A DNA stretch of 23,651 bases from Jaapia argillacea MUCL 33604 (Eukaryota > Basidiomycota > Agaricomycetes > Jaapiales > Jaapiaceae), in the NCBI GenBank assembly GCA_000697665.1, contig KL197716.1:197794-221444 (forward strand). The letters run 5' to 3'. Shown here in pieces: positions 4,712 through 17,867 of this stretch. Position 1 is the stretch's first letter; every line of letters starts with the position of its first letter. Position numbers and translations under genes: made by a program. Below the pieces are notes generated by a model. That model was not told the DNA's origin. It was given only the letters and a program-made list of their open reading frames with translations, and searched no databases.

Positions 4712-4745
4712 GGGGGGATGGCGAAAGGTAAGCAGTAGATGAGTT

Positions 4746-4822
4746 GGTAGATGAACAAGGTCCTAGGCATCTTAAGCATAGGGGGCTTTCATCTTTGTGA
4801 AGACTCATCAGGTTTGTCTACC
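4746..4822 (-). ncRNA. Hammerhead-ribozyme-like motif, copy A
   Basis: Read on the minus strand (RT sense): 5' stem I GGTAGACAAAC, core CTGATGA (4805-4811), stem II GTC / UUCACAAA loop / GAT, core GAAA (4787-4790), then a long imperfect stem III, then U-U and stem I partner GTTCATCTACC. The two 11-nt stem I strands pair at 9 of 11 positions, with a two-base internal mismatch. The predicted cleavage point lies between 4757 and 4756. All core residues (C3 to A9, G12 to A14) are present. The 10.1-11.1 pair is G-U rather than G-C, which fits a C-to-T change in an ancestral GAC-GAAA. Stem III is the weakest part: outer A-U and G-C, an internal loop, then CCTA/TAGG. Confidence 0.6.
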
Positions 4823-4998
4823 ATTTTTATATCTTCAGGGGATGATGTTTCTCCCTGGACAGCATGAAATCTGTGGGGAATTCACAGAGTATTGTCATAT
4901 TTTTAGTGTTATGTCCCATAAAGGTTTCTCAGCCTTAAAATAGGGTTACCTGGAGTTCTTCCAAGTATCTCGCGATGTACTTCTTATGGGAGTAATTC

Positions 4999-5408
4999 CT
5001 GTAAGAACAATATTTAGTATTTGTTAGATGCAATAAGTAAGATAAGACACAGCAAGCCCAAGCACCGTAGGCAACCAGTGTATTCAAGTCTTGCAGCAGC
5101 GAAGCAGGATATCACAAGAAGACTGAACTCAGCCAGCTGGGCAGATGACAGTGCTAGTCCACAGTCCCAGCTGATAACCCCAAGGTGTGAGCTGACAGGA
5201 AAACAGAGCTGGGTGGCCCCTGGTCTGCCCATGATGTGTGGATTCTCCAGTAGGGCAAGGAGCGCATCTTTTTAAGGATCAGCTTAAAGCTGTCCACCAG
5301 CAACAGAGCCCGCAATGAAGTCACAAGTCAAGGTAGGGGCTAGAAGCCCATAAGCCATGAGGGCAACAGAGGTGTCTTATCTTAGAGACAAAATATTGTG
5401 GAACTCAC
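4999..5408. mobile_element. MITE-like 410-bp insertion in terminal repeat A
   Basis: Absent from the other two terminal-repeat copies, which read straight through at ...AATTC|TAAATATAG.... The insert has sub-terminal inverted repeats: ACAATATTT at 5007-5015 against 5391-5399, and a perfect 13-mer TAAGATAAGACAC at 5038-5050 against 5372-5384. No transposase is encoded and no clear target duplication is visible. A non-autonomous DNA element is the simplest reading. Confidence 0.5.
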
Positions 5409-5738
5409 TAAATATAGTTTGATCTGGTAATTTGGAGTAACCACCTCCAGGTAAACAGTTACCTGGACAGTTCCGTCATTCTGAGTGTCGAAACATGCTG
5501 TAATTGCATGTTTCTTTTGACCCTCAAAATTCATAGAAAACTCCTGACGGGACACCCATTTCAAATCTGAATACCAAAGCCAGAATATGAGGGTGGCCCA
5601 CCAGAGGTGGCTGAGTATGTAGGCAAGGCAAAGGATTTGAAAAATCAGTGCCTCTCCAATGGTTTATTTGCAGTTAAACCAGCTTACTTGTACTCAGTAA
5701 CATATAACAATAGATATATATCATTTATATTTTACGAC

Positions 5739-8735
5739 CTAATGAAGGTCATCAACGTCAGTGTCATCGGTTTCCTGAATATGTGTAGTGATCATGGACT
5801 TACGCCATGCAGTGGTTAAGTCAAAGAGGTTATTATTCTGTCTTCTAGGAGCCAACATGTTTTTCTTTAGCCAGTCAAGGGGGAGACCCTTGAGAACATT
5901 TACTTCACCTAAGGTTACATCCTCATTAGAGGGTAGTGTGCCAACAGGGTCCACAAGTGTTCCTTGGCCATCTGTGCTAAATAGATTATCGGTCCAAGCT
6001 AACATCAGACGTTCATGAAGATTGTTGATGTCGAAATTCTCCCATACTGGGTTGAAGTGAGATGTAAGGACCCAAACATCATGACTATCTCTTAATGACT
6101 CATTGAGTCTTTCACACCAGTGTTTGGTTTTGTATTCCTTAATCCAATTCAAGATCAGAGCCTGTGGGTAACCTCTAGCAGAGTACAGGGATATTAACTC
6201 CTGCAACATATCAATGTAAAAGTCTACGTTAGAAGATAAGGTTGCCAGCCATGACATCTCACCGATAAATGTGCCTTTTTTCACATCTTTCAGATGAGAT
6301 GCCCATGGGATTCTTTCAAAATGGCTTAGGGCTTATCGATAAGGTTTATGGATGATGCAATTATTATCACGGTCTAATATAACGATCATGTCCAGGAACA
6401 CCAGAGCAGTGTCCAAACCCATCCATTTGATTTCTACTCCATCAAACTTAATGTTAGATGCTATATGTAGTGCTTCCTCTAAAGATTCAGTGACTATAAT
6501 AGAAAGTATATCATTGATATATCATTTATAAAACAACATCCTGTCTAAGGGTAATGACTTTTCTTCATAATAAGCAGCATAAAGATTGGCTATATCAGGG
6601 GAGTGTGCAACTCCCATAGCTAACCTGCTGTATTGCTCATAATACTTAGAGTAGAACTTAAAGATTAAGTTTTCACTTGTGATTTTGATGCCAGTTGCAA
6701 TGGCTTTCCATTTGGGAGAATTGGTCTCATAGACTCTGTCAAGTAAGTCTATCACCACAGCCTTAGAGTATTGTCTAGGGACATTGGTGTATAAGGCAAC
6801 GATGTTGCCAGATATTAACCATACCTTCTTATTAGGTGGAAGGACCACCTGTTTCAAAGTGATTGCTAATTCCTTAGAACTTGAGAGTATCGAGGGGAAG
6901 CACTTAAGCAAAGGTTTGAGACTTTTACTGACAAATTTTGCAAGAGGAGCCTGTATGGTAGAGTGGCAAGGAATAATCAGTCTCATTTTCCAGGGACTTT
7001 TATGTATTTTAGGTATACAATAAAAGTTTGGGATAATTTGATCAGAGCCTTCCTCGACTTGCGGTATTCAGTGAGTCAGGAATTTATATAATTGGAGATT
7101 CCTGCCGAGTACCACATGATTCATATCAATGAACACATCAATTCTGTCAGCAGTGGTGGATAGATGGGACTCAAGATCAGTGAGTGAAAGCTCCTGATAC
7201 ACTGAAGTGTCCATTAACATCTTCTCACATTCAGTTCTATACCAGTCGTGAGTAACTATTGCGGCACCTAGATTCTTATCAGTAGGCAGGATCATAAGAT
7301 GGTACTCCTTAAGATATTCCTCAAGATCAGCTACTTTGATGACTTTCACATGTCGTTGTTCAATGTCAGGCTGGTTCAAGATAAATGTTTTAACATAATC
7401 TTCTCCATGCGACAGGCCATTCTCAATATGCTGGCTACTTAATGGGGTAGCAGTTTTGCCTTCTCATCCTAAGTAGTAGTCTGGGTCAAACTTTGAGTTT
7501 GTTGGTTTTATTGTGAAATGGTATCTCCATCTGACACATTCCTTAAAATCGTTCCATGCTCTAAAGACAAGGGATGGATTATAATAGGAACCAAACATAA
7601 ATTTTAAACCAGCCGATATATGTATTGCTAATGTGTTAGGTATTGACACCCCCAGTCCCACATGAACACCCTTTCTAAATCTAGCTTCTTTGACAAGACG
7701 AAGTGGAGCCCTAGAAAGGAGTAAGGTGGATTGTAGATCATAAGGTAAGTTAAGGATTTGATCAGGATAGGAGGCAGGATCTTTGTACCTCCAGTTAGCT
7801 TGTGCAATTAAGGCGCATGTTGCTTCCCTTTCCCTTTGCCTTTTTGAGGCTTGGGGGACTTCTTGCTGTGTGGCTGAGGAAGGTTCCCCTTCTTTCATGT
7901 GCTTGCATTCTCTCGAGCTTGGCGAGAAGTTGATGATTGTGTTTTCTTGTCAGGCTTCTTTGATGGGCTGGCCTTTGGAGCCTGAACCATACTTAGAATT
8001 AGTGACATAGAATAATGAGTCAATCAGTGAGTGATGTACAGATAGTTGTTTCACTTCTTTGGCAACAAACTTCTTCATAGAAGCTTGACTCATGGAGGCC
8101 TTGCCCATATCAACGTCCATGGTTTTCTTTAGCTCAATCTTAACTTTAGATTTGTTCTGCCAGGCAGTGTTAAACAACTGAGAGATCTCTATGATGCAGA
8201 TGCTGAAGTGGGCCACATTGTTAAGAAGGCAAATGTGTTCATCTGCAAATGTGGGATCAATGCTCCAGGAGGTTACCACAAGAGCCTCATCAGTCTGTGT
8301 AAACACTGGGTGTTTGTAACACTCCAAGAGCTGTTGGCCTTCTGCCTCAACAACTGCATGGAGTTTGGGACTGAAGACAGTAGGATCCAGCTGAGCTAGA
8401 ATCCACTGTTCCTCAGCTGCTTTTATGGTAAGTAGCTGCTTATGAGTTTCCTTTCGGTACTTCTTATCTGCCACTTGCAAAACCTGACAAGCATTGGGGA
8501 TAGCAGCAAGGTATTCCTTGCAAACTTGAAGTACCAGGACGTGGATGCCCAAGGTTTGGGTTGGCCACATGCCCAATCCCTCATGAAGTTTAAGCTTGTG
8601 AACCAAGCTAGAGACATCACTGAGCTTATTGCTAAGATCGTAGATGTTCTTCAAGGGGCCCCAAAGGGCTGTTAAGATCGTTACTTCAATGAAGTATACA
8701 ATGAAAGACTTGATACTCCTCTGATAATACCTAGG
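5739..8735 (-). pseudogene. Penelope-like reverse transcriptase, one frame with five stops
   Basis: A single minus-strand frame stays in register from 8735 to the TAG at 5739 (999 codons), interrupted only by TGA at 7950, 7464, 7068 and 6522 and TAA at 6333; there are no frameshifts. From the N-terminus: an unrecognised helical region of about 260 codons, a Lys/Arg-rich segment, the DKG-type motif LPTDKNLGAAIV (about 7270), RT motif 1 FYCIPKIHK and RLIIPCH, motif A SGNIVALYTNVP (about 6800), motif B RLAMGVAHSPDIANLY (about 6590), motif C YINDIL (about 6510), and a thumb region with FERIPWASH, GTFIGEMSWLATL and ARGYPQALILNWI. There is no GIY-YIG endonuclease. The motif A Asp is Asn (codon 6804-6806) and the first Asp of the YxDD box is Asn (6513-6515), so it would be catalytically dead even without the stops. 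Three or more stops replace expected Arg, fitting CGA-to-TGA change. No ATG start was fixed; a TAG at 8736 bounds the frame. Confidence 0.8.
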
Positions 8736-9497
8736 CTACAGCCCCAGAAGTAGAACAACGAGAGGATGAGAAACTATCAGAGGTTTCCAGACAGATGATC
8801 AGACAGGGATCAAGTTGGGATGATGTGAATAGAGATAATGATCTATATTGACAAAGTGAACAAGATGGGGAATACTAGCAAATACAGGGAAGTATATATA
8901 CTAAGATGAAGCACAGTCTGTAGTCCATAGTAGCAATGAGTAAGACAGTAGTAAGACAATAGTAAGCATGAGTTGAAGTGAGTCAGGAAGATAGGAGTCC
9001 ATAGTTAGGGGTCCGTAGTCCATAGTCCACAGTCAATGGTCTGGTCTGTGAGTCAGAGACATAGGGGTCCATAGTCCATGACCCAGGTCATACTGGAAGG
9101 TGGAATGATGATGTGATGAGGAGCCAGTAGTGGCAAGGATGGAGGATAATGTACTAAAGGTTGGATGTGCAGGAACAAGAATATGTCAAAGGGATGTTGA
9201 AGGGATAGGAACCCATCCCTTGTGTTCAGGAGGAGTATGACTGTAGTATTGGATGATCCATATATGGAAGGATCAGATATCCATGAGGAGTGTTGAGATA
9301 ACAAGAAAAATGAAAATAGATGTAGCGCAGTGTGATTCTAACAAGGGCTTCCCTGTAGGATAGGGGGATGATGCTGATAATGGTGGGGAACTCATCAAGA
9401 AACCCCAATGCCATTATATGAGGGAGGCAGCAGAGGTATCCATTGATGCTGTGTGTGGTGACTAGTAATGAGGGGGTGCTTGATAGTTTTAGAACTT
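8736..9497 (-). other. PLE leader between terminal repeat B and the RT frame
   Basis: No convincing gene. It contains short direct repeats of a GTCCATA(G) heptamer: GTCCATAGT at 8923, 8997, 9019 and 9067, with variants GTCCGTA, GTCCACA and GTCAATG side by side at 9011-9038. It also holds a TATATATA stretch near 8895. A 122-codon open frame that runs into the terminal repeat has no recognisable similarity and is not annotated as a gene. Confidence 0.5.
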
Positions 9498-9910
9498 GGG
9501 GGGATGGCAAAAGGTAAGCAGTGGATAAGTCGGTAGATGAACAAGGTCCTAGGCGTCTTAAGCATAGGGGGCTTTTGTCTTTGTGAAGACTCATCAGGTT
9601 TGTCTAATGTTTTTATATCTCCAGGGGATGATGTTTCTCCCTGGACAGCATGAAATCTGTGGGGAATTCGCAGAGTATTGTCATATTTTTAGTGTTATGT
9701 CCCATGAAGGTTTCTCAGCCTTAAAATAGGGTTACCTGGAGTTCTTCCAGGTATCTCGCAATGTACTTCTTGTGGGAGTAATTCTAAATATAGTGTGATC
9801 TGGTAATTTGGAGTAACCACCTCTGGGTAAACAGTTACCCAGACAGTTCCCTCATTCTGAGTGTTGAAACATGCTGTAATTGGATGTTTCTTTTGACCCT
9901 CAAAATTCAT
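9498..9910 (-). repeat. PLE terminal repeat B (5' copy)
   Basis: Direct repeat of 4712-5534 without the MITE-like insert. It runs from the GGGGGG run at 9498 to ...CAAAATTCAT at 9910, where it meets inverted copy C. Confidence 0.88.
9532..9608 (-). ncRNA. Hammerhead-like motif, copy B (inactivated)
   Basis: Same layout as copy A: CTGATGA at 9591-9597, stem II GTC/GAC intact. The following GAAA is AAAA, so the catalytic G12 is lost. GAC-GAAA to GAC-AAAA is a CpG-to-CpA change. The outer two pairs of stem I are also lost. Confidence 0.55.
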
Positions 9911-10296
9911 GCCATTGCAGCATGTTTCAACACTCAGAATGAGGGAACTGTCTGGGTAACTGTTTACCCAGAGGTGGTTACTCCAAATTACCAGATCAAA
10001 CTATATTTAGAATTACTCCTGCAAGAAGTGCATTGCGAGATACTCAGAAGAACTCCAGGTAACCCTATTTTAAGGCTGAGAAACCTTCATGGGACATAAC
10101 ACTAAAAATATGACAATACTCTGTGAATTCCCCACAGATTTCATGCTGTCCAGGGAGAAACATTATCCCCTGGAGATATAAAAACAGTAGACAAACCTGA
10201 TCAGTCTTCACAAAGACAAAAGCCCCTACACTTAAGATGCCTAGGACCTTGTTCATCTACTAACTCATCCACCACTTACCTTTCACCATCCCCCCC
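9911..10296 (+). repeat. PLE terminal repeat C (inverted copy)
   Basis: Near-perfect inverted copy of 9498-9890, running outward to CCATCCCCCCC at 10296. Arms B and C (about 385-390 bp each) are separated by only about 23 unpaired bases (around 9887-9909), giving a palindrome of roughly 800 bp. Differences between arms are scattered single bases. Confidence 0.88.
10186..10261 (+). ncRNA. Hammerhead-like motif, copy C (inactivated)
   Basis: Inverted copy on the plus strand. The core reads CTGATCA at 10197-10203, so G8 is C, and AAAA replaces GAAA, so G12 is lost. Both general acid and general base positions of a hammerhead are gone. Confidence 0.5.
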
Positions 10297-12180: not shown

Positions 12181-14020
12181 ATGTCCAGTACAAGTCAATT
12201 GACTCCTACTCAGCCTCCTAGGTCAACTACACCTACCACATCCCCACCACCCACCATGTTGTCCACATCCTCTGGTTCATCACCCATCCCTGTCTCTTCT
12301 ATCACAAAGCTCGATGGTACCAACTACCCTACTTGGGCCGTCGCTGCTTGCACCTATCTCACACTTAACAAGTTGTGGCCATATGTCATCAACCACAACT
12401 CAGTCAAATGTACCTCTTCCGCCACTCAAGCTGATAAGGATGCCTTCACTGAAGCTGATGGGTGAGCACTCTCCACACTTGCCATCCTCTTACATGAATC
12501 ACTCTACTACCTCGTCAACTACGACAAACTATCCCACTCACTCTGAACCGCTCTTTCGACACTCTTCCACAAGGGCAGTGCACTTCAAATCTTCTTGAAG
12601 TTCCAGCAGTTCTTCCAATTCACCCTCACCAAGTTAGAACCCATGAGTGTTCAGTTGGACAATCTCACCAAGCTGAAGCAGGACATCGCTGCTGGTGGTT
12701 TAATCATCGATGACATGTACTTTGCATTCATCATGCTACTTGCTTTACCTGACTCATATTCCAACATTGTCGACACTATCCTCATGGTCATTGAAGCCAG
12801 CATGCTTGAACCAGCTGCTATTCACCAGAAGATCATTTCTGAGGAAGCCTGTCGCAAGTCCAACCCTTCTGCTGCCATTGTCACCACCTCTGCGTCCAGA
12901 TTGAAGGACAAGGGGAAGAAGAAACCCAGCAGGTGTCATTACTGTCAGAAGGATGGACATTGGGAGAATGAGTGCAGAAAGAAGAAGGACCAGGGAGATA
13001 GAGGAGGAGGGGGAAGGGGAAGTTCATCATCTACACCTGCTGTAAATGCCACTACCATACCTGCTGTTGCTGCCATCACTGGTGAGGCTCAGGTTGCCAA
13101 TGTCACTTCTTTCTGGTATGGCTTGAGTGATACCCACATCTGGATGCTCGATTCAGGTTGCACTGAGCATATGACGCCCAACATCTCCAACTTATCCAAC
13201 TACACACCCTTGTGTTTGCCTTTGGTGGTTCATTTGGCAGACAAGGCTAAAATATCAATCAGTTACTTGGGTACTGGCACAGTCTCTGGCTACACGATGG
13301 TGAATGGACAACAGGCTACTGTCGTGATGGAATGGGTTCTGTATTGTCCACAGATCACCCACTGTATGATCTCTATTCGATGATTGGACTCCAAAGGTCT
13401 TCACACAAGTTTTGGGAACTCGACTGCAACTATCCTCAAGGGCTCGCAGACCCTTGGTATCAGTTCACTGCAGAATGGGCAGTATTGGCTTCTGCTCCAT
13501 GCTGCACCATCTGTACACATGTCCACTGCTGTCCCTATTGAAGTTGTTCACACATATATGGGTCATCTCAACTGGGAGGGAGTTGCTAAACTTCCTAGTT
13601 GTACACATGGCCTTACTGTCAGTTCAACAACACGATCCTCCACTGTTTGCAAGGGTTGCATGCTTGGGAAGCAACACCAGCATTCTTTTCCTTCATCAAA
13701 CACTCCTCATGCTCAACACCCTCTCAATCTCATCCATTCTGACCTCATTGGCCCTATGTCAGTTGCCATTATTGGTTCTGGCAAACTCTACATCATCACC
13801 TACATTGATGACTGCTCACATCATGGTTGGGTTTGGTTCCTCAAATCCAAGGACCTTCAGTGTGATTCCTTCAAGGAATTCAGGGCCATGGTTGAGAAAC
13901 AATTCAAACTCAAGATCAAGGGTTTTTGCTCTGACCAAGGAGGTGAATATCAATCTGAGAAGTTCATTGCTTGATTGAAGGAACTCGGGATCATTCATTA
14001 CCACACAATCCCTGGTATGC
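12181..14020 (+). pseudogene. copia gag-protease-integrase (5' part of polyprotein)
   Basis: One plus frame from ATG 12181. Gag: Ser/Thr/Pro-rich N-terminus, then the copia gag signature KLDGTNYPTWAVAACTYL and LNKLWPYV, and a CCHC zinc knuckle C-x2-C-x4-H-x4-C at 12934-12975. Protease: WMLDSGCTEHMT with the catalytic Asp at 13150-13152. Integrase: zinc-binding H-x4-H (HTYMGH) and CKGC, then first catalytic Asp in LIHSDLIGPM and second in FCSDQGGEY. In-frame TGA at 12463, 12544, 13381 and 13972; most sit where Arg or Trp is expected. The frame ends at HTIPGM, where a large solo LTR has inserted between the second catalytic Asp and the catalytic Glu of the integrase. Confidence 0.9.
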
Positions 14021-15696
14021 TGTGGGGAACCCATTCTGCCTACACATGGATTCATGCCATTCTATCTCCTCGACCATATCTCCATTGAATTGAGCAAACA
14101 GCATCCCCTCTCCTCATGACCATTCGAAATCACTAGTTTCATACGATTCCAGACTCTACATACCATTCCTTCACTCCTGGCATACACACAACACTCGGTT
14201 CCATCTCAAACAAAGCTTGACATTCAGTAATTTGCTTCCTCGTCATCCAGAACTCGGAAATATGAATCATCCGAACGGACGCCCAATCCTCCTATCGTAT
14301 CGATCGCATCCCAAGTGATGTCGGAATTTCCTATCCACTCCAACTCCGAGATTCCTCTCAAGACCAGATGTCCACTATCTCGCCTCCACGTCACTCGGTA
14401 TCAGGAATTCCGAGGTTCTACAATCAGGACTGTATTCAATACGACGATACGATTCCGATGCACCCGATGCACATGATTCTAGGTGTCCGAAACATCGAGA
14501 TTTGACTCAAAGATCTCTCCCCACCAATTTGGACTTACGACTTTGCATGTCTCGGGAAACCTGATGATCTTGTCAGGAAGCTCCTTATCTCGACGTTCCG
14601 AGTCCCAATACACTGCCACAACATGTTCCTATGGTCCAGTACTCCAGGATTTACGAATCACTTACATCACTTTCCATATCCTTCACTTCTCGACTTCTCT
14701 ACTTTATGTTTGTGCTCTCAAGTCAAGTCCTTGATCAAGAAGACACTCGATTTAAGTTTCCGAGATAAACTACTGCAGATCCTGCTCCTCCTGGGTCTTC
14801 TGTGCCATTCCCCTTTCGGTCTGAGACTCCTATGCCAGGACTTCACTCGCTTCAGAGGATACTCAGTATGTTTTACCTCACTTGCTTGACTTTCAACTTG
14901 TCCCCTCTTTCGTTGTGCACTCTTTCACTTGAATCACCCTCATGCTGTACCAAATTCACCCTATCCTTTGTCCTTTCCTCTTTCATAGCTACCTCATGTA
15001 CTTAGGTATAAAAACCTGTCTGTAGCTACTGGAATAACAACAACCCTTTGTGATCTCCCTCATCTTGAGTCGCTCTCAGATGTTGCTCACCTTTGTGCTA
15101 TCAATCTAAGCTTGTCATTGTGTCGCTCTCTAGTGTCCCCTCGGAATCTGACTATTTTGGAACTGACTTCCTTTGTTTTCGTGATTTTCGACTTTTCTTA
15201 CTTTCAACTTGTGTTGACGTTTCCTGACCTTCACATTCTATTCCGACACATTCTTTTGATTCATTCTGATCTTATTTCGTTCCGATTAGTGTTTCCCTTT
15301 TGTTTCTATTCCAATGTCTTAGTTTCAGATTGTTTTGATTCAGATCTCTTTGCTTTCTTTCATTTTCGTTAGTTTCCGTCACATGTCCTACAGTTAGTTT
15401 CGTCATATCACGTCCTTAGATTCCTGAGTATTCCGACCCGATTCCTGATGTTTCGGACACCTGCACAGGTACTCACCATAGCACACCCTCCCCTCGGGAT
15501 TACTCCTCCACTATCACTGTGTTGAGTTGAGTTTCCCTTTATGTTCCATTTACTGGACACATCACTTTTGGACCTTACCAAGTCTGTCCCACACATTCCC
15601 ACATCCCGAAACACTGATCCCTCCCGTTCTTTGGTTTTTATCTGAAGACGAACAACTACCCCTCACTTGGACCTCACGCACCCTGAGTACCCCACA
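14021..15696 (+). repeat. Solo LTR 1 of a large-LTR family, nested in integrase
   Basis: 1676 bp, starts TGTGGGG and ends CCCCACA, with a 4-bp target duplication ATGC (14017-14020 and 15697-15700). Homologous end to end with 17868-19693. TATAAAA at 15007-15013 marks the likely U3/R region. No gene inside: the open frames are short and not shared in phase. It is clearly CpG-richer than the surrounding copia sequence. Orientation follows the TATA box. No internal region remains, so the parent superfamily is unknown (Ty3-like is plausible). Confidence 0.85.
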
Positions 15697-17867
15697 ATGC
15701 CACAACAAAATAGTTTGGCTGAGCGCATGGGCAAGACTTTGGTTGGATCTGCCAAGTCTATGATGCATGCTGCTGGCCCTTCCACAGGCTTCTGGAAGGA
15801 GGCTGTGGCAATAGCAATGCATGGTTGCAATCAAGCTCCGTCTTGCGTCATTGGCTGGAAGACCCCTCACGAAGTCCTGTATGGACACAAACCCAATATT
15901 TCCTACTTCAGGGTATTCGGTTGTCTGGCTTATTGCCAAGTTCCTCAGGAGAAACACAAGAAGCTGGACAAGCAGTTGTCACTTCTTGTGTTTGTCAGGT
16001 ATGATCTGGGTTCTAAAGGTTACCAGCTCTGGGATAAACATACCCGCTCTATCATTGTAAGTACTGATGTGGCCTTTGACAAGGGAGTCTTTCCAAATTG
16101 TCCCACTCCAAGCCCTCCATCTTCTACACCACAACCTCAACCCAACTGACTTGAAGTACTGTTATTAGAGCCATTTTCTGATGAGGAAATCAATCTGCCA
16201 GAAGAACAGCAAGTACATGTTGATGCCCCAGGTGGACCTACTCCACCTGAACCCACAACCACCACCACCTGCTACACCTGAACCAGAACCAAGACCTCAC
16301 ATACCACCTCTCAAATGTATCATTCAACCTCCCACCACACCTCCATGTAGTGCACCTCCACCTCCACCTAAATGACCTTAAGCTGCTCATCAGAAACAAC
16401 AAGAAGATCTCATCTTGGATCCTTCACCAGTCCCAGCAGCACACCGATCAGGTTGCAAATGCACAGTTTGCAGACACAAGAGTTGCTTGGACAGTTCCAG
16501 CAACATCGCTGAGGATGGCACCTACATTGACAATACTGCTGTCCCATGGAGCGACACACCAGCAGTGGGAGCTCTTCACATTCATGATGAGCCCATTACC
16601 TACAATGGTGCGATGTGTTCATCAGAGAGTGAACAATGGTCTGAGGCAATGAAGGAGGAAATTGCTTCCCTTCATTGAAATGGAACTTGGGTTCTTGAGG
16701 ACCTTCCTCCAGGTTGCAAGGCAGTTAAGTGCAAATGGGTCTTTTGACTCAAGTTTGATGTACAGGGTGAAATCACTTGGTATAAGGCTAGGCTTGTAGC
16801 TAAAGGCTTTACTCAAGTACATGGTATCGACTTCGACAAAACCTTCTCACCAGTTGCACAACTCAAAACAATCCAATTACTATTTGTGCTTGTGGTAATC
16901 CTGGACTGGGAGATCCACCAAGTTGATGTGAAATCAGCATATCTTAACAGTGATCTCAACAAAGAAATTTACATGGAGCAACCAGAAGGTTTCACAGTAT
17001 CCGGTAGCGAAGACAAGGTCTGTCACCTACTGAAGGCCTTATATGGGCTAAAGCAGGCTGGTTGCCAGTGGCACTAGAAGCTGAAAGCTGCTTTGGAGGA
17101 TCTTGGACTTATGTGCACCTTGAGTGACATATCTGTTTTTGTTGTGTGCAGACAGGAGGGAGACATGGTAATCATTTTTGTGGTCTATGTCAACAACATA
17201 ACTATCCTTGGCAACTCACTGAAGGAGATTTTGCAAATCAAGAAACATCTAGCTGACCACTTCAAGATCATGGACATGGGCAAAATTTCGCATTTTCTAG
17301 GACTATGAGTCACTTGCAACCGTCCTAAATGCCTCATCTACCTTGATCAGTCAAAGTACATTCATGACATTCTCATTCATTTTGGGATGCAAGATGCCCA
17401 CCCCGCCAGTACACCATTCGCTTCTGGCACCAAACTTCTAAAGAACCCCAACCCTGTCGAAGATGCTGACCCGTCTTTTCTCAAGGACTATCAGTCTCTT
17501 CTCAGCTCCCTTCAATACGCCATGCTTGGCACACACCCTGACCTCGCGTTTTACTGTCACAATCTTGGTTGATTCCAATCCAACCCAAGCATTGTGCACT
17601 ACAAGGCTGCAAAGCACGTCCTATGGTATCTCAAAGGTACTCGACACTACAAGTTGCATCTCAGCTCCTCCAACAATGACATTTTGATTGTTGGATTCTC
17701 TGACTCTGATCACAGCAGAGATAAGAACAATCAATTCTCTGTTTCTGGTCAAGTCTTCTTCATCAGCGACGGCGCTACCACCTGGGCTGCTCACAGACAG
17801 ACTTCTGTTGCTACTTCTTCTACAGAAGTGGAGTACATGGCTGCCTCTGAAGCTACCAAACAAGCAC
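15697..17867 (+). pseudogene. copia integrase end, reverse transcriptase, start of RNase H
   Basis: Continues the polyprotein after solo LTR 1: MPQQNSLAERM holds the integrase catalytic Glu, followed by TPHEVLYGHKPNISYFRVFG and the SKGYQLWD GKGY-like part. A Pro-rich linker contains a stop at 16147 and a frameshift near 16250. RT: NGTWVLEDLPPGCKAVKCKW, ARLVAKGFTQVHGIDFDKTF, motif A VDVKSAYLNSDL (Asp kept), LLKALYGLKQAGCQWH, and YVNNITILG where the YVDD box should be: both Asp codons are AAC (17192-17197). RNase H: FSDSDHSRDKN, TSVATSSTEVEYMAASEA. Stops at 16373, 16379, 16676, 16745, 17075, 17306 and 17570; TGA stands for expected Arg at 16676, 16745, 17306 and 17570. Ends at KQAL, where solo LTR 2 sits. 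Confidence 0.9.

Follow-up and report, generated by a model that had tools for sequence, protein, structure and literature searches.

The window analysed here, a stretch of 23,651 nucleotides of DNA from the basidiomycete Jaapia argillacea MUCL 33604, contains with a probability of about 85% a degenerate Penelope-like retrotransposon (PLE), whose pLTRs carry a predicted type I hammerhead ribozyme with an open stem I, a 5-bp stem II and an extended and interrupted stem III. The hammerhead in a PLE pLTR is already known as a kind; new are the two pLTR families described below. Assignment to type I is suggested by three stems around the core with an open stem I, as read from the sequence and modelled by folding, and by the catalytic core CUGAUGA ... 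GAAA with U16.1 and H17, which is complete in eight of ten genomic copies.

Anatomy of the element and its genomic relatives

The Penelope-like anatomy of the original prediction is found in the window, where an RT coding region lies between two direct pLTRs and is accompanied by an inverted pLTR, the arrangement pLTR - RT - pLTR with an optional inverted pLTR being the one expected of Penelope-like elements. The parts are as follows:

4712..5534, minus strand: 3' pLTR (copy A) with the intron-like segment retained, recognised by repeats D1 and D2 and ending at the C-run 4712-4717
4999..5408, minus strand: intron-like segment GTGAGT...TTACAG of 410 nt within pLTR A
5739..8654, minus strand: decayed coding region, from ORF and protein comparison
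9498..9910, minus strand: 5' pLTR (copy B), intron absent, from repeat comparison
9908..10295, plus strand: inverted pLTR (copy C), intron absent, from repeat comparison

The repeat parts of copy A are 4712-4998 and 5408-5534 (minus strand), and copies B and C meet head to head at about 9908-9910.

A search of the host assembly (43.7 Mb, 95 contigs) gave at least eight matches with the window pLTR and at least eight with a family-2 copy as query, both counts being lower bounds. Ten copies of the motif, seven of them beyond the three in the window, fall into family 1 (A, B, C, C4L, C4R and C24) and family 2 (C8L, C8R, C49 and C3). One further RT copy was found in the genome, a 458-aa frame in C4, which brings the family-1 RT copies to two in total; window positions 6039-7379 match it with 82% identity and contain two TGA and one TAA. 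The C4 RT matches RVT_1 with an E-value of 3e-05 and 24.2 bits, under the Pfam cut-off of 29.6, and its nearest NCBIfam and PDB matches, Drt3a RTs, are below threshold; the order of its RT motifs is presumably PLE-like. A GIY-YIG domain gave no Pfam match at E up to 1 in five window ORFs and two C4 ORFs, frames that are decayed and truncated. The RT search of the genome detected no RT of family 2 (loci L028, L030 and L031), whose hammerhead core is intact; the family may be non-autonomous, although the upstream flank of one copy is masked and an RT of its own might be too divergent to be detected.

A and C4L have the 410-nt GT-AG segment, C24 has part of it, and B, C and C4R lack it precisely, a pattern as would be expected of a spliced intron, and since some copies have the segment and others lack it, spliced and unspliced (or antisense) RNA both seem to have served as templates. 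In the window, at C4 and at C8 the composites have an inverted arrangement, in which the same 3' end, terminating in ATCCCCCC, forms the outer end on either side. C4, whose pLTRs are 95.9% identical, is flanked by a direct duplication of 174 bp (L027:3612-3785 and 7311-7484, 164/174 identical) and C8 by one of 35 bp (L028:4800-4834 and 5841-5875, 31/35 identical), both unusually long; none was found at the window, C49, C24 or C3. Telomere targeting was considered and dropped, as only one of six insertion sites is no more than 5 kb away from the end of its contig.

Elsewhere in the window, a 44-bp minisatellite array occupies 2-1188, an NPHP3_N fragment of a NACHT-type NTPase region lies at 1862-2491 (E 3.9e-06), and ORFs at 12595-16149 resemble by eye a Copia-type LTR retrotransposon with a zinc knuckle and an integrase-like part. 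A minisatellite that by eye looks akin to the 44-bp array is common to the flank of the C24 copy (L029 3317-4333) and the end of the C8 contig (L028 9205-9974).

The hammerhead motif and the conservation of its core

Direct reading of copies A, B and C bears out a hammerhead layout, oriented like the RT, in all three pLTRs, as well as the proposed loss of G12 in B and C and of G8 in C:

4746..4822, minus strand: hammerhead motif of copy A, from direct reading, descriptor and alignment; predicted cut between 4757 and 4756
9532..9608, minus strand: hammerhead motif of copy B, from reading and alignment; G12 lost (GACAAAA), equivalent cut 9543/9542
10186..10261, plus strand: hammerhead motif of copy C in the inverted pLTR, from reading and alignment; equivalent cut 10250/10251

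Read on the minus strand from 4822 to 4746, copy A has the order GGTAGACAAAC, CTGATGA, stem II, GATGAAA, stem III, CCTT and GTTCATCTACC. Stem I pairs 4822-4812 with 4756-4746, CTGATGA occupies 4811-4805, stem II pairs 4804-4800 with 4795-4791, and GAAA (4790-4787) is followed by stem III. The motif of copy A stands as originally predicted, and so does its long and irregular stem III, which is extended over 28 nt from GAAA to U16.1 and interrupted, with a distal helix of 4 bp; the proposed stems require revision, stem II having 5 bp instead of 3 (GUCUU with AAGAC or AAGAU, loop CACA) and stem I consisting of 6 bp, a 2x2 internal loop and 3 bp. All three window copies are decaying. Only A retains a complete core, its stem II being closed by a G-U pair; C combines GACAAAA (G12 to A) with CTGATCA (G8 to C) and has lost one nucleotide from the 5' strand of stem III.

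The GACGAAA postulated as ancestral, and as damaged at its CpG in the window, is present in five of the ten copies, namely C4L, C4R and C24 (three of the six of family 1) and C8L and C3 of family 2. GATGAAA is found in A, C8R and C49 and GACAAAA in B and C; U16.1 and U17 are present in all ten. Among the columns of family 1, those with a CpG in one copy or more are variable in 18 of 22 cases versus 59 of 270 elsewhere, a comparison in which the choice of columns itself favours higher variability, and this variation fits a decay through CpG deamination.

Covariation and folding

Compensatory changes across genomic copies, the test that had been set, occur in stem III, where four of the six distal pairs have changed on both sides (C-G/U-A twice, A-U/U-A and C-G/G-C) and keep one register across both families; two of the six are each unpaired in three of nine rows. 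The underlying alignment, A2, holds ten rows of which nine are distinct, its cells are not independent events, and ten copies in two families amount to few independent events. With these bounds, 95.8% of the cells pair in the nine distinct rows versus 29.8-51.4% when the partners are slid by 1-3 columns, and cells changed on both sides number 12 versus 0-5 in the slid versions. The covariation score of 0.253 was reached by none of 500 shuffles, and two of the five shuffle measures were not above the shuffles (170/500 and 498/500).

Stem I was not counted beyond its inner three pairs because the aligner sets the families out of register there. Inspected by eye, GGUAGA/UCUACC is identical in eight of the ten copies, all six pairs are kept in copy C, with A-U replacing the outermost G-C, and the two outermost of the six are lost in copy B. 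The interruption of stem I is a 2x2 internal loop in family 1 and a 2-nt bulge in family 2.

Apart from A, family 1 has three intact copies, C4L, C4R and C24, and the unconstrained minimum-energy fold of each combines stems I and II with distal stem III, with one stray pair within the core. Copy C folds into stems I and II with a different stem III, and in A, B, C8R and C49 alternative folds win or compete; in particular, the minimum-energy fold of copy A is not a hammerhead and the probability of its stem II is 0.08-0.11. Proximal stem III consists only of A15.1-U16.1 and a G-C pair beside an internal loop, with pairing probabilities of 0.07-0.30 in nine of ten copies and about 0.70 in C. The folds of family 2 are not clean, the inner stem I having a probability of 0.22-0.31 in all four copies and GAAA pairing with the stem I side in each of their minimum-energy folds. 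On its own, RNAalifold recovers no more than stem II plus three pairs of stem III.

Pattern and model searches

A strict descriptor, written after the motif had been seen and allowing no gaps, finds copy A and gave no hit in 300 dinucleotide-shuffled windows; it does not match the family-2 loci L028, L030 and L031 because stem I is bulged there and gaps are disallowed. A loose core pattern matched at least 11 places in the genome versus none for the reversed pattern. Eight of these 11 are this repeat; the matches at L014, L021 and L022 by eye show neither its stem I nor its stem III surroundings and were set aside as chance matches.

The covariance-model hit envisaged in the original prediction was not obtained with the Rfam models. 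The window yielded no hammerhead even with E values up to 10 allowed, and there was none over threshold in five other loci, in C24 or in three 121-bp stretches, and none over the cut-off when RF00163 and RF00008 were run on the whole genome, whose low-score matches (three for RF00163 and two for RF00008) lie outside this repeat. The best score, 16.4 bits with RF00008 on copy C8L, is below the gathering score of 48.5, which is a threshold of detection and not a definition of activity. We take the two pairs of proximal stem III beside an internal loop to be the reason why these models fail. An Rfam match of the window to mir-653 was rejected as it represents only the B/C inverted repeat.

Beyond the host, the 17-nt core word occurs at three places in viral contigs and at 13 in prokaryotic genomes, versus about 30 expected in the latter by a uniform-base estimate. 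In those 16 loci a home-made model, R1, gave eight matches at E up to 10, the best with 25.4 bits at L045:2461-2508 (minus strand) in a Bacteroidetes contig; Rfam at gathering threshold identified two tRNAs and no ribozyme in the eight loci.

Alternative readings and the possible role of cleavage

The conserved block might be a DNA or promoter element, or an RNA structure bound by the RT, with an incidental hammerhead look, and two observations agree with this: in all ten copies a TATAAA precedes stem I at a distance of 0-3 nt (in the window at 4826-4831, minus strand), and DNA searches match the two families to each other in the block that holds the motif. However, the core letters stand at prescribed positions and are mostly intact while stem III varies by paired substitutions, and the architecture was absent from the shuffled windows, which makes an incidental resemblance very improbable. 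A vestigial PLE hammerhead, carried along in this lineage without cleavage function, would account for the G-U pair that closes stem II in three of the ten copies, the loss of G12 in two and the weak proximal stem III, but it is unlikely given the intact core of the other eight and the paired substitutions between and within families, which indicate that pairing was maintained during divergence. Under the preferred reading of a type I hammerhead, the intact copies would be expected to cut. As a separate observation, a TATA-driven start about 30 nt further on would land within the ribozyme.

A pLTR-to-pLTR transcript would be cut after ACCUU, with a 3' product beginning with GUUC in family 1 or GUUU in family 2. 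That the ribozyme set the ends of the RNA, as originally proposed, and that cuts in both pLTRs defined a unit-length RNA which was reverse transcribed and inserted, is suggested by the motif in all three pLTRs and by the unit-length RNA that cuts in B and A would yield. The insertion ends speak against it. All nine of the outer ends (A, C, C4L, C4R, C24, C8L, C8R, C49 and C3) are located at a C-run that follows the predicted cut by 45-46 nt, copy B runs through the cut point and continues about 300 nt upstream of the motif, and the 5' or inversion junctions, readable in five cases (window, C4, C24, C8 and C49; that of C3 is unreadable) and placed by the ends of BLAST alignments, all lie away from a cut. 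These three observations together argue for templates that were uncut at the 3' site. Furthermore, mutating the ribozyme of the lizard PLE PAc left insertion in vitro unaffected, and the authors detected no RNA-seq reads with a start or an end at the cut (PMC11167929). Cleavage-defined unit RNA is hence disfavoured and seems quite unlikely, and the original proposal, RNA ends set by the ribozyme, is not supported.

In the preferred reading, the insertion ends indicate a start of reverse transcription at the C-run, 45-46 nt past the cut, with RNA still uncut there as template, and the ribozyme may trim read-through or tandem transcripts or act late, a role that the position of the insertion ends makes more likely than a definition of the inserted ends. 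The uncut 3' template agrees with PAc, in which reverse transcription initiates internally, downstream of the ribozyme (PMC11167929).

Relation to known systems and significance

Monomer-stable hammerhead variants in fungal and protist PLEs were reportedly described by Cervera and de la Pena in 2014. Hammerheads in PLE pLTRs are established (PMC7761336, PMC6155905, PMC6431247, PMC7229834) and have been described in all available PLE sequences, usually as minimal motifs without helix III (PMC6155905). The published motifs are type I and present in each pLTR, as in the window element, and differ from it in being usually minimal and lacking helix III, compared with the extended stem III found here (PMC7761336, PMC6155905). 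In the literature search, no title or abstract opening among the matches listed concerned a fungal PLE hammerhead, a weak negative as key papers lie outside that search.

PAc, a Poseidon-type PLE of Anolis, resembles the window element in a hammerhead near the junction of pLTR and ORF, in an internal start of reverse transcription downstream of the cut and in the use of uncut RNA as template; it differs in possessing a GIY-YIG endonuclease, whereas no endonuclease match was obtained here, and the PAc ribozyme cuts only with protein added (PMC11167929). Fungal PLEs deficient in an endonuclease are represented by Coprina. The Penelope elements of Adineta vaga share an ORF between direct pLTRs plus an inverted pLTR, a TATA box in the pLTR, a TSD around the composite and, in one family, a spliceosomal intron, but the TSD of the endonuclease-containing Penelope is 8-10 bp (PMC3846280), in contrast to the 174 bp of C4 and the 35 bp of C8, and the window yielded no TSD. 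The rotifer Terminons equally bear a 3'-end hammerhead directly upstream of a C-rich terminus; their tail is the complement of the telomeric repeat and their sites are telomeric, whereas the window element ends in a plain C-run (PMC6431247). Hammerheads in a basidiomycete genome also have a precedent in a 2016 survey that gives five Rfam type 3 hammerheads for Pleurotus ostreatus; these are not tied to PLEs in the passages that list them and were found with an Rfam model that misses the window motif (PMC5040776).

A more far-reaching interpretation, speculative and rather doubtful at present, would see here an endonuclease-less fungal PLE in which a self-sufficient hammerhead with extended stem III, 45-46 nt upstream of the start of reverse transcription, acts as a switch by which RNA is taken out of the insertion pathway, cutting and templating being mutually exclusive; in the same genome the second, RT-less family would keep only the pLTR and its ribozyme in the manner of a fungal retrozyme.

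The analysis contributes two related pLTR families in which a PLE hammerhead is backed by covariation, in a version that is missed by the models of Rfam. It also bears on the role of these ribozymes in PLEs, as the nine insertion ends, all past the cut, argue independently of the experiments with the lizard PLE for an uncut inserted template.
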